Of a stretch of DNA of 52,813 nt, positions 4,936 to 44,217 are shown piece after piece. Source of the stretch: an uncultured Monoglobus sp. Lineage in GTDB: Bacteria > Bacillota > Clostridia > Monoglobales > Monoglobaceae. Position 1 is the first letter of the stretch. Each line of letters begins with the position of its first letter. The stretch is taken from the NCBI GenBank assembly GCA_947585115.1, contig CANPWW010000007.1, positions 1-52,813 of the forward strand, given 5' to 3'. The position numbers and the translations under genes are program-made. The notes under the pieces are model-generated. The model searched no databases and had not been told where the DNA came from. It saw nothing but the letters and a program-made list of their open reading frames with translations.

Positions 4936-7587
4936 ATGAATATTCGCAGCGGATTGCGGTGTTTCGCGGCGCTTGTTTTAAGCGCGGCTTTATTGCTGTA
5001 CCCTATCTCCCCCGTTCATGCGGCAATCGACGTTAAGTGGAGCGACACAAAGCTTCGCGAGGGCGTCTTGTCCGCGTCCGTATCGGGCGCGGCGGATGGA
5101 CAGTCGCTAATTTTGGCCGTATATTCCGACAACAGGCTCCTCGGCTTAAGCATTGCCGCCGCGCAAAACGGCTCAGCTTCCGCGGATACAACGATCGAAG
5201 CGGCGGCGGACACGGCAAAGCTGTTCCTTTGGGATATGGAAACCTTGATGCCCGCGTGTGATGTGCTGTCAACGCTCACCCGCGAGAACACGCCCGCGCC
5301 AGCTTCGACGCCAACGAACGCGCCAACTCCGACAATTACGGCTGTGCCGACACCAATACCAACGACTGAGCCAACTCCGACGCCAACAGCTGTGCCAACA
5401 CTAACACCAACGACTGTGCCTATGCCGGCACCAACGGCCTCGCCTACTCCGACATCAACAGACGCGCCAACTTCTACAGCCGTTCCGACACCTACCCCAA
5501 CGACTTCACCGACACCGATGCCAACGAACACATCTACTCCTATACCAACGGTTGCGCCTACTTTTACGTCAACTCTGACACCGACAGCTTTACCGACGCC
5601 GACACCGACGACTGTGCCAACTCCTACACCCGCGGCTGTACCGACACCCACGGCTGCGCCAACGCCTACGCCCGCGGCTGTACCGACACCCTCGGCTGCG
5701 CCAACGCCAACGGCTTCACCAACACCCACACCAACGATTGCGCCGACACCTGCGCCCACGGCTGAGCCGACACCGACACCGACACCGAACATTGACACAT
5801 CGCGCGAACCCGAAAGCCCGGATGAGCTTCGTTCCGCCAACGACGCGGCTGTTGACGAGCTAGCGAAGCTGCCGACATTCGACGGACGCAAGTACAATAT
5901 TGTAACGCCCGTCAGAAATCAATCTAACAATATCTGCTGGGCATACGCTGTCGCAGGCGCGGCGGAAATAAGCGTTCTGCGCAAGGGAATAGATCCGAAC
6001 GCGTCAGCCGAGTCGCTCGACTTTAACGACCAGCATCTCGCCAACGCCTGCTTAAACCCCGCCCTCGACCCTTTGGGCAACAATCTGCCCGACTATAACG
6101 GCTTCTTCAGCGGCTGGTACTCTGGCGGCGAAACGCACGAGGGCGTCTATGCGATGCTTCGCTGGAACGCGCCCGCGCTGCAGTCCGTTTCGGACAACGA
6201 GCTGATAAACAAGCCCGCGTACCTGCTTGAAAACGCAATCAATCTTCCCAACAGCAGCGCCGGCACAGACGCTCTGAAACGCGCGATCGTCAAATACGGC
6301 GGCGTGGCGGTAAGCTGGTACTGCAATTCCGGGCTGTACCGAAACGGCTATTATAACAACGACATATCCGGCGGTTTATACGGGTCGGGACACGCGAGCG
6401 TTATAGTCGGCTGGGATGACACCATAGATAAAAACCTGTTTCGCTTTGATGACAAAACCCCGTGTCCCGCTTCGCGCGACGGCGCGTGGATCTTGAAAAA
6501 CAGCTGGGGCAAAAGCTACGGTTTTAGCGGATACTACTACGTATCCTATGACGTTCTGCTTTCAAAATGCTACGCTCTCGATATGTGCTCTGCCGATGAG
6601 TATGATAACAACTACCACTATGATTCATCCGTAATGACAAGCTCGAGCTGGACGCTTGATCCGGGCGAACGCGCCGCGGCGATGTTTGAGGCGAGAACGG
6701 CGTTTGCCGATCGGCACGAGTCTATTACCGGCGTCAACGTGGCCGTTGGCGAAGGCAGCAATTACAAGATCAAGGTGAAAATATACAAAGACCCCGACGC
6801 CGATTTTACCGATATATACAATCCGGAAAACGACCCCGGATCCGGCTCTCTTGCCGCAGAGGCGGAATCGGATACATTGATGTACCCGGGAGCGTACACG
6901 GTGAAGCTCAAAGAACCGGTGGAACTAAAGCAAAATCAAGTATTCAGCGCGGTCGTGGAACTGACAGGCGATGCCAAAATACGCGTTGTGACCGACCACG
7001 AAAAAACCTCCGGCATTTATCCGGCTAACGATATGACCTTCTCAAATTCCGGCGACGGCTGGAAGAATACGCGCTCGAGAGCGAATTACGTCGCCCAGAT
7101 AAAGGTGTTTACGAAAAACATTCCCGCCCGGCAGCATAAGGATAATTCGCTTGATTACGCGGATATTCGCTTTGACCGCCGCGCCGTGACATATAACCAA
7201 GAGGCACAGCATCCCGATCTCACCGTATATTTTGACGGCAAAACGCTTGCCGAAGGAAAGGATTATACCGTGGACTACCCCGACTCCGTGCGCATAGGAC
7301 GGTACCGGGCAACCGTTAAGGGAACAGGCGATTACAGCGGAAGCCGCGATATAGACTACTCCGTTAAGCAAGCGCCTGCGCCGCTTAATAAACCGCCGCG
7401 GATAATGGAGGTCACGGGCAATTACGAAACCTACAAAGAGGTGCCGCTGCCCGACGGCTGGGTCTGGGGCGATCCGGATATGCTCGTCGCTTCGGAATGC
7501 TCCAATTACGCCATATACAAAGGCGACGACGCTTACTGCTATATAAACACTATGGCAGATGTCCGCGCCGTGCTCAAAAACGAATAA
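4936..7587 (+). CDS. Secreted papain-like (C1) cysteine protease with Thr/Pro-rich linker
   Basis: An 883-residue protein. The start at 4936 follows GGGGGAGG and gives a clean signal peptide of about 28 residues ending near PVHA. An N-terminal beta-rich segment is followed by a long low-complexity PTP/TPT linker (about residues 115-290). The C1 peptidase domain (about 300-545) has C334 in NNICWAYA, H486 in GHASVIVGWDD and N522 in LKNSWGKSYG. After it comes a region resembling the lectin-like domain that accompanies such proteases (about 560-720), then an Ig-like repeat with YTVDYPDSVRIGRYRATVKG. It is probably exported and held at or released from the cell surface. The substrate is unknown. 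The linker codes are degenerate enough to keep the reading frame stable. Confidence 0.88.
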   Translation: MNIRSGLRCFAALVLSAALLLYPISPVHAAIDVKWSDTKLREGVLSASVSGAADGQSLILAVYSDNRLLGLSIAAAQNGSASADTTIEAAADTAKLFLWDMETLMPACDVLSTLTRENTPAPASTPTNAPTPTITAVPTPIPTTEPTPTPTAVPTLTPTTVPMPAPTASPTPTSTDAPTSTAVPTPTPTTSPTPMPTNTSTPIPTVAPTFTSTLTPTALPTPTPTTVPTPTPAAVPTPTAAPTPTPAAVPTPSAAPTPTASPTPTPTIAPTPAPTAEPTPTPTPNIDTSREPESPDELRSANDAAVDELAKLPTFDGRKYNIVTPVRNQSNNICWAYAVAGAAEISVLRKGIDPNASAESLDFNDQHLANACLNPALDPLGNNLPDYNGFFSGWYSGGETHEGVYAMLRWNAPALQSVSDNELINKPAYLLENAINLPNSSAGTDALKRAIVKYGGVAVSWYCNSGLYRNGYYNNDISGGLYGSGHASVIVGWDDTIDKNLFRFDDKTPCPASRDGAWILKNSWGKSYGFSGYYYVSYDVLLSKCYALDMCSADEYDNNYHYDSSVMTSSSWTLDPGERAAAMFEARTAFADRHESITGVNVAVGEGSNYKIKVKIYKDPDADFTDIYNPENDPGSGSLAAEAESDTLMYPGAYTVKLKEPVELKQNQVFSAVVELTGDAKIRVVTDHEKTSGIYPANDMTFSNSGDGWKNTRSRANYVAQIKVFTKNIPARQHKDNSLDYADIRFDRRAVTYNQEAQHPDLTVYFDGKTLAEGKDYTVDYPDSVRIGRYRATVKGTGDYSGSRDIDYSVKQAPAPLNKPPRIMEVTGNYETYKEVPLPDGWVWGDPDMLVASECSNYAIYKGDDAYCYINTMADVRAVLKNE

Positions 7588-7648: not shown

Positions 7649-7733
7649 GTCAGCAATGAGTGCAGACCAAAGGAACGGCGGCGGCTGTTCCGCTCCCTAT
7701 AGGCCGGAATAAGGTATAAAGAGGGTGGGGCTT

Positions 7734-7811
7734 ATGGACTACATAGAGATCTTGATGTTGGCGATTTTTATAATCGCCTTATCGGAACTTGTGAAGAACA
7801 TAAAAAAATAG
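7734..7811 (+). CDS. Small hydrophobic peptide, type I toxin candidate (locus 1)
   Basis: A 25-residue peptide beginning MDYIEILMLAIFII and ending in KNIKK, with one membrane-spanning stretch and a basic tail. The start follows AGAGGGTGGGG. The pattern Y-E-x-LM with a single hydrophobic segment and lysine-rich end resembles the TxpA/BsrG and 'putative holin-like toxin' peptides of Firmicutes. A promoter 86 bases upstream and a convergent antisense promoter at 7891-7919 frame it, and the stop codon lies in the bidirectional terminator. By analogy the peptide would depolarise or damage the membrane if its antisense RNA were lost. This is inferred from organisation and peptide character; no homology search was run. 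Confidence 0.68.
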   Translation: MDYIEILMLAIFIIALSELVKNIKK

Positions 7812-7886
7812 CCGCCCAAGTTTGACGACATCGGCGGCTATATTTATGTAGCTAACGGTGGAACAGCCAAAGTCGTTCCTCTGTAC
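7803..7886 (-). ncRNA. Putative antisense antitoxin RNA of locus 1
   Basis: A consensus promoter on the minus strand starts an RNA of about 80 bases that ends at the hairpin overlapping the toxin stop codon. Its 3' part is complementary to the toxin mRNA 3' end. Its leader (7860-7888) reads GAGTACAGAGGAACG...GGCTGTTCC, matching the toxin mRNA leader (7658-7691). Confidence 0.62.
7808..7841. terminator. Bidirectional terminator of locus 1
   Basis: ATAGCCGCC and GGCGGCTAT form a perfect 9-base stem. The minus-strand side is followed by a seven-T run and the plus side by a T-rich stretch, so it can end both convergent RNAs. Confidence 0.8.
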
Positions 7887-7890
7887 TCAG

Positions 7891-7919
7891 ATTATAGCAT
7901 ACTCCGCTTTATATGTCAA
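7891..7919 (-). promoter_or_regulatory. Antisense promoter of locus 1
   Basis: Minus strand TTGACA, 17-base spacer, TATAAT: full consensus, convergent with the toxin gene. Confidence 0.85.
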
Positions 7920-16881: not shown

Positions 16882-16958
16882 CGGGGTTTGGCGCAGTTTG
16901 GTAGCGCACTTGGTTTGGGACCAAGGGGCCGCAGGTTCAAATCCTGTAACCCCGACCA
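16882..16958 (+). tRNA. tRNA-Pro (anticodon TGG)
   Basis: Acceptor CGGGGTT pairs with AACCCCG, anticodon stem CTTGG/CCAAG with loop TTTGGGA, T arm GCAGG-TTCAAAT-CCTGT, encoded CCA. Confidence 0.95.
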
Positions 16959-17032
16959 GCGGAAAAATGACCGCTCGTTTACAAAAGTCATGCAAAGCAT
17001 GACTTTCTTTTTTTAACGGTCATTTTTCCGCT
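16958..17032 (+). terminator. tRNA-Pro terminator nested inside a larger palindrome
   Basis: An inner hairpin AAAGTCATGC...GCATGACTTT (16984-17006) followed by a T run is the intrinsic terminator. It is enclosed by a perfect 16-base outer inverted repeat, AGCGGAAAAATGACCG at 16958-16973 and its complement at 17017-17032. The outer right arm lies beyond the T tract. Confidence 0.85.
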
Positions 17033-17033
17033 T

Positions 17034-17282
17034 ATCCCACGAAACGCGCTCCGCTGGCGTTCCGTGGGAGCCCTGTTTTGACCGCCTTTCCCTAATCAGC
17101 AAGCTTGCTTGCGGGTTCAAAGCGACCTTTGAAAATCGCTTGCGATTTTCACCAAGAGCTTCCTTGATGCTGCCAACGTAGGGACTAGGAAATAGGCTCG
17201 CCCCTTGGGGAGAGCTGTCTGCGGTTTGTCCGCAGACTGAGAGGGGTTCCTAGTCCCTAGTTCCTAATCTCTAGTCCCTATG
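17034..17282. repeat. Cluster of dispersed palindromic repeats
   Basis: From left: a CCCACGAAACGCG...CGTTCCGTGGGAGCCC hairpin unit (17037-17073), a unit with CAGCAAGCTTGCTTGCGGG and AAAATCGCTTGCGATTTT (17097-17172), an R2 unit TAGGGACTAGG, a CGCCCCTTGGGGAGAG...CAGACTGAGAGGGG unit, and a closing R2 CCTAGTCCCTAG...AGTCCCTATG. The last runs straight into the -35 of the next promoter. Confidence 0.8.
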
Positions 17283-42585: not shown

Positions 42586-42614
42586 TTGAAAAAATTGCAA
42601 AATTATGTTATTAT
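42586..42614 (+). promoter_or_regulatory. Sense promoter of toxin-antitoxin-like locus 3
   Basis: TTGAAA, 17-base spacer, TATTAT. The sequence following the -10 is shared with locus 2. Confidence 0.7.
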
Positions 42615-42752
42615 ATTACCGATGTTTGATAAGTTAATAAAAAGGCAAAGTAGAGCGGTTACAGCCATCCCTATCTTTTTATAGAAGGGAGGTGACTTCC
42701 CAAATATAAATTTGATTTATTTCAAGAGTTTATATAAAGGAGGTTATGCGCT

Positions 42753-42824
42753 GTGAAACAATTTTTAAGAATAATATTTTTAACAATATTGTTTCTCGTG
42801 ATATTCACGATAAAAGCAGTGTAG
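42753..42824 (+). CDS. Small hydrophobic peptide, type I toxin candidate (locus 3)
   Basis: A 23-residue peptide beginning MKQFLRIIFLTILFLVIF and ending in TIKAV: basic start, single membrane span. The GTG start is nine bases after AAAGGAGG; an overlapping ATG in another frame is too close to it and gives a hydrophilic product. Upstream lies a second strong ribosome-binding-like GGGAGGTGA in a small palindrome (about 42688-42702) with only a five-codon frame VTSQI. The stop codon lies in the terminator stem, and an antisense promoter faces it. Function is inferred from organisation shared with loci 1 and 2. Confidence 0.63.
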   Translation: MKQFLRIIFLTILFLVIFTIKAV

Positions 42825-42900
42825 CCGCCCTCTGCCAAGGACGACTACATATAAAAATTAGTTTTCTTTGGCTGTAACCGCGTTTGCGGTGCCTTTTATT
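42815..42900 (-). ncRNA. Putative antisense antitoxin RNA of locus 3
   Basis: A predicted 85-base RNA from a consensus promoter. Its leader (42870-42906) is AATAAAAGGC-ACCGC-AAAC-GCGGT-TACA-GCC; the last part, GCGGTTACAGCC, is identical to the toxin mRNA leader at 42655-42666. It runs across the toxin 3' end to the shared hairpin. Confidence 0.6.
42821..42848. terminator. Shared terminator hairpin of locus 3
   Basis: GTAGCCGCCC pairs with GGACGACTAC through two wobble pairs in one RNA orientation, leaving a short loop. Placed like the terminators of loci 1 and 2. Confidence 0.6.
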
Positions 42901-42906
42901 AAATTT

Positions 42907-42935
42907 ATTATAACATTAATTTTTCCCTTTGTCAA
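42907..42935 (-). promoter_or_regulatory. Antisense promoter of locus 3
   Basis: Minus strand TTGACA, 17-base spacer, TATAAT. The -35 is the right half of the inverted repeat CCCTTTGTC/GACAAAGGG, as in locus 2. Confidence 0.85.
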
Positions 42936-42952
42936 CCGACAAAGGGGATTTT

Positions 42953-43555
42953 TTACTTTTGATTTTTTGAGTAGACGCAGCCGCAGTAGTTTTGGCGGTA
43001 GAGGCTGTATTTTTTTGAAAGCTCGATCGACTGCTTAAAGCCCTCTTTCTTTTTAAAATCCGATGGAAGAAAGTTCACGCCGTATTTTTTTGAAAGATCG
43101 TTTCCGATCTCGTTGATTTTTTGCGCGTTTTTGAGCGGACTGATCGTAAGAGTGGTGCAGAACCAATCAAAATTATGGTTTTTCGCAAGCTCCGCCGCTT
43201 TTTCAAGCCTTAATTCATAGCACTTAAAGCAGCGTTCGCCGCCCTCGGGACAATCTTCGAGATCTTTTGATATTTCAAAAAATTTGTCCGGCTCATAGTC
43301 GCAGTCAATAATTTCGATCGGATTTTCCGCCGGCAGCTCGGATATCAGTCTTATCTGCTCGGCTTTGCGCTTTTCGTACTCGTTTTCGTCCGTTATATTC
43401 GGATTATAATATAATACCGTTATTTTAAAATACTTATTGAGATAACTCAAAACATAGCTGCTGCATGGCGCGCAGCAGCTATGGAGCATAAGTGTCTGTC
43501 CGTTTGTGTTTAAAAGTATTTTATCAAGTTCCTTTTGGTAGTTAATCTTGTTCAA
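42953..43555 (-). CDS. queH: Epoxyqueuosine reductase QueH
   Basis: A 200-residue protein of the former DUF208 family that completes queuosine synthesis in tRNA without cobalamin. Conserved cysteines are HSCCAPCSS near residue 25, RCFKCYELRLEKAA near 107 and YCGCVYS at the C-terminus, which hold an iron-sulfur and a second metal centre. Full length. It follows a 84-residue unknown gene by 31 bases. Confidence 0.9.
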   Translation of the reverse strand: MNKINYQKELDKILLNTNGQTLMLHSCCAPCSSYVLSYLNKYFKITVLYYNPNITDENEYEKRKAEQIRLISELPAENPIEIIDCDYEPDKFFEISKDLEDCPEGGERCFKCYELRLEKAAELAKNHNFDWFCTTLTISPLKNAQKINEIGNDLSKKYGVNFLPSDFKKKEGFKQSIELSKKYSLYRQNYCGCVYSKNQK

Positions 43556-44059: not shown

Positions 44060-44136
44060 GCGCCTGTAGCTCAGCTGGATAGAGTGAACGGCTACGAACC
44101 GTTAGGTCGGGGGTTCGAATCCCTCCAGGCGCGCCA
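44060..44136 (+). tRNA. tRNA-Arg (anticodon ACG)
   Basis: Acceptor GCGCCTG pairs with CAGGCGC, anticodon stem AACGG/CCGTT with loop CTACGAA (A34 to be edited to inosine), T arm GGGGG-TTCGAAT-CCCTC, encoded CCA. Confidence 0.94.
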
Positions 44137-44210
44137 GCGGAAAATCAACCGCTTCTTTGCGAAAGTCATGCAGAGCATGACTTTCTTTTTTATGCGGTTG
44201 ATTTTCCGCT
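44136..44210 (+). terminator. tRNA-Arg terminator nested inside a larger palindrome
   Basis: Inner hairpin GAAAGTCATGC...GCATGACTTTC (44161-44185) with TTTTTT, enclosed by a perfect 17-base outer repeat AGCGGAAAATCAACCGC (44136-44152) and its complement (44194-44210). Confidence 0.85.
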
Positions 44211-44217
44211 TTTCCCT

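Follow-up and report, generated by a model that had tools for sequence, protein, structure and literature searches.

Locus 3 of the DNA analysed here (the window, 52,813 nucleotides from an uncultured Monoglobus sp.) is probably a chromosomal type I toxin–antitoxin locus, in which the toxin mRNA would be closed by a helix between its 5′ and 3′ ends and an antisense RNA would act on its 3′ end. The layout of the locus, its conservation, the co-variation of the two helix arms and the strand on which they pair could be established computationally. A sequence motif shared by the toxin and antisense leaders is, in the predicted folds, the two arms of the helix that closes the toxin mRNA.

Layout and distribution of locus 3

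Locus 3 is flanked by serS on one side and queH on the other. It occupies the same syntenic place in two other species, where its core is 95–96% identical, compared with about 91% for serS and 90% for queH. The parts of the locus are listed below with the two other loci of the window that share its layout.

42586–42614, + strand: toxin promoter, TTGAAA (42586–42591), 17 nt, TATTAT (42609–42614); 10 of 12 consensus positions
42621–42667, + strand: 5′ arm of the toxin mRNA, which contains TTAATAAAAAGGC and GCGGTTACAGCC; partner 42869–42917 (RNAalifold on 8 sequences, arm tests)
42668–42690, + strand: leader hairpin TCCCTATC...AAGGGA (RNAalifold; pairs invariant across the 8 sequences, hence without covariation)
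42696–42743, + strand: Shine–Dalgarno (SD) hairpin in predicted folds, CTTCC paired with the SD AAGGAGG (42737–42743)
42753–42824, + strand: toxin-like peptide MKQFLRIIFLTILFLVIFTIKAV, GTG start, TAG stop at 42822–42824 (homologues, codon-position bias)
42811–42900, − strand: predicted antisense RNA of about 90 nt, start near 42900, placed from promoter and terminator
42820–42849, no strand assigned: stop-codon hairpin, followed on the − strand by CTGCTTTTAT, the predicted antisense terminator (terminator scan)
42869–42917, + strand: 3′ arm of the toxin mRNA, GGCTGTAACCGC...GGTGCCTTTTATTAA, up to the antisense −10 region (RNAalifold)
42877–42890, + strand: local hairpin ACCGCgtttGCGGT within the 3′ arm, an alternative to 5′–3′ pairing
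42907–42935, − strand: antisense promoter, TTGACA (42935–42930), 17 nt, TATAAT (42912–42907); 12 of 12 consensus positions
42923–42954, + strand: predicted toxin mRNA terminator, with the antisense −35 box inside its stem and loop
36344–36672, − strand: locus 2, a paralogue of locus 3 with the same layout; peptide MKNVLKTLLIMFIILILFAIFPNKVI (ORF 36538–36461)
7672–7919, + strand: locus 1, same layout; peptide MDYIEILMLAIFIIALSELVKNIKK (7734–7811), antisense promoter 7891–7919 (− strand)

The toxin mRNA is predicted to start near 42621. It has a leader of 132 nt, an SD and a GTG-started reading frame for 23 residues. The peptide is hydrophobic with a net charge of +3, and is probably a membrane toxin. 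The same character holds across 64 ORFs of 23–27 amino acids (hydrophobic fraction 0.73 on average, net charge between +2 and +5). Differences at the three codon positions, counted over 125 ORF pairs, amount to 353/134/507, which indicates that the peptide is under selection as a protein. The stop codon is paired, in a fold below all 50 shuffles, in 57 of 69 copies.

A profile built from five peptides found six copies in the window's genome at E ≤1.9e-7 (eight rows at E up to 10). It matched 15 of 60 genomes, two matches (L055 and L056) being dropped as false and kept out of all counts. Among same-genus genomes 10 of 12 matched, while G007 and G008 gave no match at E 0.01. The resulting working set consists of 56 peptide gene copies, drawn from the genus and its family. 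At E 0.001, a wider profile matched 20 of 391 genomes of the class; 10 of these lie outside the family, one of them with a probably false match inside a long frame. At E 1e-4, the single match in a phylum sample of 398 genomes was the window's own. A genome pattern scan returned 13 stretches, nine from Monoglobus and one from an uncultured member of the Clostridia; matches in Pseudalkalibacillus, Chitinophagales, Clostridium drakei and one viral contig may be due to chance. A tblastn search of plasmids and phages with one 23-residue relative gave no match, with a query too short to say much.

The locus 3 peptide has no match in NCBIfam or PHROGs. Its best Pfam match (Nodulin_late, E 1.3, below the cut-off) and the Rfam near-misses of the locus (lowest E 0.18, none at gathering score) were taken for chance. 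A literature search, covering parts of the sources, yielded no description of the peptide family. Within these libraries and sources, the suggestion of the first-pass annotation that the system is undescribed holds.

That annotation also called locus 2 a paralogue. This view is supported inasmuch as one peptide profile, built with loci 2 and 3 both, locates both among further copies. The locus 2 peptide also matches phrog_3098 (function unassigned) at E 3.2e-4, which hints weakly at relatives in phages. The locus 1 peptide is absent from the matches of the profile built with loci 2 and 3, and looks unrelated to their peptides. A layout scan of five locus 1 relatives was positive for four and negative for L167. 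In L166, an orthologue of locus 1, both arms differ at many letters and yet remain paired. One control layout may serve several toxins. By layout alone, a further pair of hydrophobic peptides came to light: MKKVFFKIAFALMVIAVILTVFSPSVQ and MKHWALKAAVMLFVIVIIHIAFAPVVH, in L136 and in L140 near position 1400.

The window holds other repeats as well. A long array of 24-nt direct repeats occupies 5290–5777. Two repeats that are 82% identical and foldable as stem-loops (16956–17038 and 44134–44216) lie immediately after two tRNA genes, and more repeats common to both places follow downstream.

The matched motif and its pairing partner

Direct reading confirms that the toxin and antisense leaders of locus 3 carry the same motif. 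The toxin leader (+ strand) has TTAATAAAA from 42634, GGC at 42644–42646 and GCGGTTACAGCC at 42655–42666; the opposite strand has GCGGTTACAGCC at 42881–42870, GGC at 42893–42891 and TTAATAAAA at 42902–42894. Locus 2 contains GCGGTATAGC twice, and locus 1 contains GGAACG...GGCTGTTCC twice. The convergent toxin and antisense layout described in the first-pass annotation is likewise predicted here, with motifs that differ between loci and match inside each. The two copies at locus 3 are inverted, so that both RNAs carry the same sequence and not complementary ones. A motif arranged in this way can pair only inside one long RNA and cannot join the two leaders.

That the match exceeds chance is indicated by its recurrence in relatives and by RNA folding of 42620–42940, which gave −105.6 kcal/mol, at a z of −7.7 relative to 100 dinucleotide shuffles (−61.3, sd 5.75). 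The predicted helix joins 42621–42667 at the 5′ end of the toxin mRNA to 42869–42917 at its 3′ end. RNAalifold on eight sequences of the locus 3 group (alignment A5) pairs columns 2–48 with 254–303, with one broken cell in the helix and both-side changes at 6/299, 43/259 and 48/254. Among 57 predicted full-length RNAs, 55 have at least eight expected 5′–3′ pairs, a figure without a shuffle control.

To score the arms we used an ungapped scan; free duplexfold of leader and tail ran far past them. Counts refer to the 45 of 56 copies with a leader, 11 having been set aside by eye: four with the 5′ part broken by an inserted repeat (L048, L071, L076, L079), five with this part replaced or missing (L062, L078, L084, L088, L091), one cut by a contig end (L087) and one doubtful (L086). 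The inserted sequence is a dispersed repeat, GTAGTGATTAG..., which in the leaders of L034, L048, L071, L076 and L079 directly follows GCGGTACA or GCGGTATA, as if these were its target site. Four of these five leaders were checked, and none of the four has an SD any more.

The first-pass annotation had named copies with unmatched leaders as evidence against its reading. A helix of at least nine pairs is kept in 44 of the 45 copies (in two of these, L054 and L063, the scan chose the outer part of the arms), and L039 keeps seven pairs. Counted with G·U and A·C scored alike, the 31 distinct helices of the 45 copies contain 390 Watson–Crick, 38 G·U, 10 A·C and 23 other oppositions. Since A·C in the toxin sense corresponds to G·U in the antisense, the excess of G·U says that it is the toxin strand that folds. 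Nine helices of a second set, mostly from other Clostridia families, gave G·U:A·C of 14:2, or 12:2 without L112, which is the same copy as L057 of the first set. Locus 1 and four relatives show no bias (7:10), and each of their arms can also self-fold.

The arms change in pairs, as in TTACAGCC/GGCTGTAA to TTATAGCC/GGCTATAA, GGTACAGCC/GGCTGTACC to GGCACAGCC/GGCTGTGCC, and GGTTAGCC/GGCTAACC to GGTTATCC/GGATAACC. For 21 motif representatives picked by eye, own arms score 31.7 on average and foreign arms 21.5, a result reached in 0 of 20000 permutations; the copies are related, and the counts are therefore not independent. Only 8 of the 21 beat every foreign 3′ arm. In the other 13 the arms are less than fully specific: one to eight foreign arms equal or exceed the own arm in pairing, with eight doing so for L067. 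Two copies of the window's genome (on C59 and C32) have the same 5′ inner arm. With arms that diverge and yet stay paired, the copies serve as naturally occurring mutants in which long-range pairing within a toxin mRNA can be studied.

These observations bear on two other readings of the repeat. The first-pass annotation took the matched motif for an element by which the toxin mRNA and antisense RNA of one locus recognise each other, so that paralogues do not cross-talk. The motifs do differ between paralogues while matching within each, and the 5′ leader of the antisense RNA can pair with the toxin 3′ arm. We nevertheless rejected this role, which we consider quite unlikely: the leader copies of loci 1, 2 and 3 are identical instead of complementary, the G·U bias indicates that the toxin strand pairs with itself, and an antisense RNA encoded in cis needs no such motif to be complementary to its target. 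The inner arm shared by the copies on C59 and C32, and the ease with which foreign arms pair in 13 of the 21 representatives, also speak against it. The case illustrates that recognition between two RNAs may be read into what is an inverted repeat. Alternatively, the repeat could be a matter of DNA, either as the ends of a small mobile element or as duplicated convergent promoters. It does extend to the two −10 regions, and its copies are dispersed. However, DNA symmetry does not explain arms that vary in a paired way with an excess of G·U, and locus 3 keeps a single syntenic position across three species, with a conservation above that of the flanking genes. For these reasons we rejected mobile-element ends as the source of the repeat, and regard a DNA-level origin as a whole as most improbable.

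The predicted antisense gene and the ribosome site

The antisense promoter matches TTGACA/TATAAT at 12 of 12 positions in 49 of 56 copies, at 11 in six and at 10 in one. Shuffled regions never reached 12 in 1120 trials and reached 11 twice. The best sense promoter scores 9–11 in 51 of the 56 copies. Further copies from other families have a 12/12 promoter at stop +81 to +93 in all 11 cases scored; two of these are near-identical, and the count omits L122, which lies inside a 959-residue frame. Perfect promoters (TTGACA, 16–18 nt, TATAAT) are common in the window's genome, with 141 instances and none in the reversed control, so that position counts more than quality. Among 36 perfect promoters checked in the window and the fetched loci, the layout with a hydrophobic small ORF occurs at loci 1, 2 and 3, L136 and L140; the remaining 31 are without this combination.

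The predicted antisense terminator lies at the stop codon, so that the antisense RNA would stop some 70 nt downstream from the SD. The RNA would span the last toxin codons and the 3′ untranslated region, excluding the ribosome-binding site. In its 5′ part it would carry a second copy of the toxin mRNA's 5′ arm.

Nine copies have lost the toxin leader or carry a broken one, all of them without an SD, and score 11–12 (eight copies) or 10 (one copy) for the antisense promoter. L062, situated where locus 2 lies, is one such case. All 45 copies with a leader have an antisense promoter of 11 or 12; loss of this promoter alone was not seen among them. Leader loss with the antisense promoter kept is what would be expected from a toxin and its antidote, and recent decay would look similar.

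On the reading we favour, the toxin mRNA (about 42621–42954) would be closed on itself by the 5′–3′ helix, and a convergent antisense RNA (about 42900 to 42811) would run from its perfect promoter to the stop-codon hairpin. Because it begins with a copy of the toxin 5′ arm, the antisense RNA could pair with the 3′ arm and displace the toxin's own 5′ arm. The resulting long duplex would be open to RNase III. In the locus 2 group and many other copies, the freed 5′ arm and an anti-SD might then hide the SD, as happens upon SR4 binding to bsrG mRNA. The transcripts, the toxicity, the part played by RNase III and the order of events are what we infer in this scheme. A more ambitious proposal, which we hold to be conceivable but doubtful, describes a portable RNA control cassette of the Clostridia for unrelated toxic peptides. 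The antisense RNA would swap with the 5′ arm by strand exchange and release an anti-SD that shuts translation from a distance, and arms that have drifted apart between paralogues would lessen exchange among them.

We modelled antisense binding by deleting the covered part of the toxin mRNA in 57 RNAs, a set that omits L057 (counted as L112). For 34 of them, the bound state makes the ribosome site harder to open by 1 kcal/mol or more, and for 10 it makes it easier. By a simpler measure, SD accessibility averages 0.18 at full length and 0.14 when bound or 3′-truncated, low values in either state; truncation raises it by more than 0.1 in 6 RNAs, lowers it by more than 0.1 in 15 and leaves the rest within 0.1.

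The groups behave differently in these predictions. In the locus 2 group, the median opening cost is 4.3 kcal/mol at full length, 10.0 with the antisense-covered part removed and 9.5 with a shuffled tail. These values suggest that the native tail keeps the site open because it captures a 5′ arm with an anti-SD. The native tail opens the site in 13 of 14 copies, an effect equalled by 7 of 112 shuffled tails. Among other copies, 24 of 35 lean like the locus 2 group and 5 the opposite way (63 of 280 shuffles do as well). For the locus 3 group, the corresponding costs are 9.2, 8.9 and 9.3 kcal/mol; the effect appears in one of eight copies, and 29 of 64 shuffles do as well. Locus 3 itself costs 10.3 kcal/mol at full length and 9.5 when bound. 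An SD switch by antisense binding is a fair prediction for the locus 2 group, but not for locus 3. With a ribosome site predicted to be closed in both states, duplex decay appears the likelier route in the locus 3 group, and for locus 3 itself the folds favour duplex decay or end protection over a switch.

Eleven leaders (L065, L080, L081, L082, L085, L050, L083, L051, L064, L090 and L093) carry an upstream SD-like GGAGGTG, followed by a start codon joined to a stop codon (ATGTGA, ATGTAG or GTGTAA). This arrangement, absent at locus 3, is a possible standby or stalling site.

The same predictions allow two further roles for the helix to be weighed. As in hok or AapA systems, it could make the full-length mRNA inert until 3′ trimming renders it translatable. 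That scheme turns on a 5′–3′ helix within a type I toxin mRNA, according to the part of the literature consulted (PMC6733600), and the six RNAs whose SD becomes more accessible upon truncation would fit it. Against these stand the 15 in which accessibility falls, the 34 of 57 in which the bound or trimmed state is harder to open compared with 10 in which it is easier, and a 3′ arm at locus 3 without a CCTCC-like anti-SD. We judge this switch to be rather unlikely. The helix might instead serve mainly to shield the ends of the toxin mRNA from nucleases, without any translation switch, such that a stable mRNA and an unstable antitoxin would kill after loss of the locus. This is a real, if lesser, possibility. 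It agrees with a helix that begins at the predicted first nucleotide in the locus 3 group, and with the lack of a predicted ribosome-site effect in that group. It does not account for the locus 2 group, where the native tail specifically opens the ribosome site and only 7 of 112 shuffled tails match it.

Comparison with known type I systems

The comparisons below draw on parts of the cited papers. Among the closest systems are bsrG/SR4 and bsrE/SR5 of B. subtilis, in which a convergent antisense RNA pairs with the 3′ end of the toxin mRNA. Pairing leads to RNase III decay, and SR4 also induces a longer SD hairpin on bsrG (PMC6562991, PMC7430163). Locus 3 resembles bsrG/SR4 in several predicted properties: an antitoxin promoter stronger than that of the toxin (reported for sr4), a ribosome site closed by local structure, and a main toxin mRNA helix (P1 in bsrG) of which the 3′ part is invaded by the antitoxin (PMC6562991, PMC7430163). 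It differs from both systems in the length of the peptides, 23–27 residues compared with 30–38 as described there, and in a predicted antisense RNA of about 90 nt compared with 163–180 (PMC6562991, PMC7430163). The diverged copies make remote translational control of the bsrG/SR4 type testable by comparison. In txpA/RatA of B. subtilis, the antisense RNA likewise overlaps the toxin 3′ end, by about 75 nt and away from the initiation site. Decay there is by RNase III, a step that is only presumed here, and the toxin has 59 residues, unlike that of locus 3 (PMC4147584). The source consulted reports no conformational change at the ribosome site for this pair (PMC6562991).

The long-distance 5′–3′ interaction in the toxin mRNA is described for aapA/IsoA and cited for earlier systems such as hok/Sok (PMC6733600); at locus 3 and its relatives, prediction and covariation point to the same feature. 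In those systems, however, the SD is concealed by the interaction, and trimming of the 3′ end is what activates the mRNA (PMC6733600), a direction that our predictions do not favour. With Fst/par of pAD1, locus 3 has in common a GUG start and, by prediction, convergent RNAs, an SD hairpin and a sequestered 5′ end. In par, direct repeats place complementary copies in the two RNAs, whereas the repeats here are inverted; par also has a shared bidirectional terminator, whereas the terminators predicted here are separate (PMC7472228). The type I pair timP/TimR is similar in that the small RNA acts away from the ribosome site through mRNA structure, but TimR binds the 5′ untranslated region of timP and the structure is a pseudoknot (PMC11228461).

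Modules of Clostridioides difficile such as CD2517.1-RCd8 are also clostridial and convergent, occur in several copies per genome and encode small hydrophobic peptides. Their toxins, described as having 34–59 residues and charged C-termini, are set apart from that of locus 3, and 8 of the 13 modules lie on prophages or the skin element (PMC6563280). What locus 3 would contribute to the type I systems is a new peptide family, unnamed in the libraries searched and present in dozens of copies in uncultured gut Clostridia. It is not a new principle, as the 5′–3′ helix and antisense control at the 3′ end are known already.
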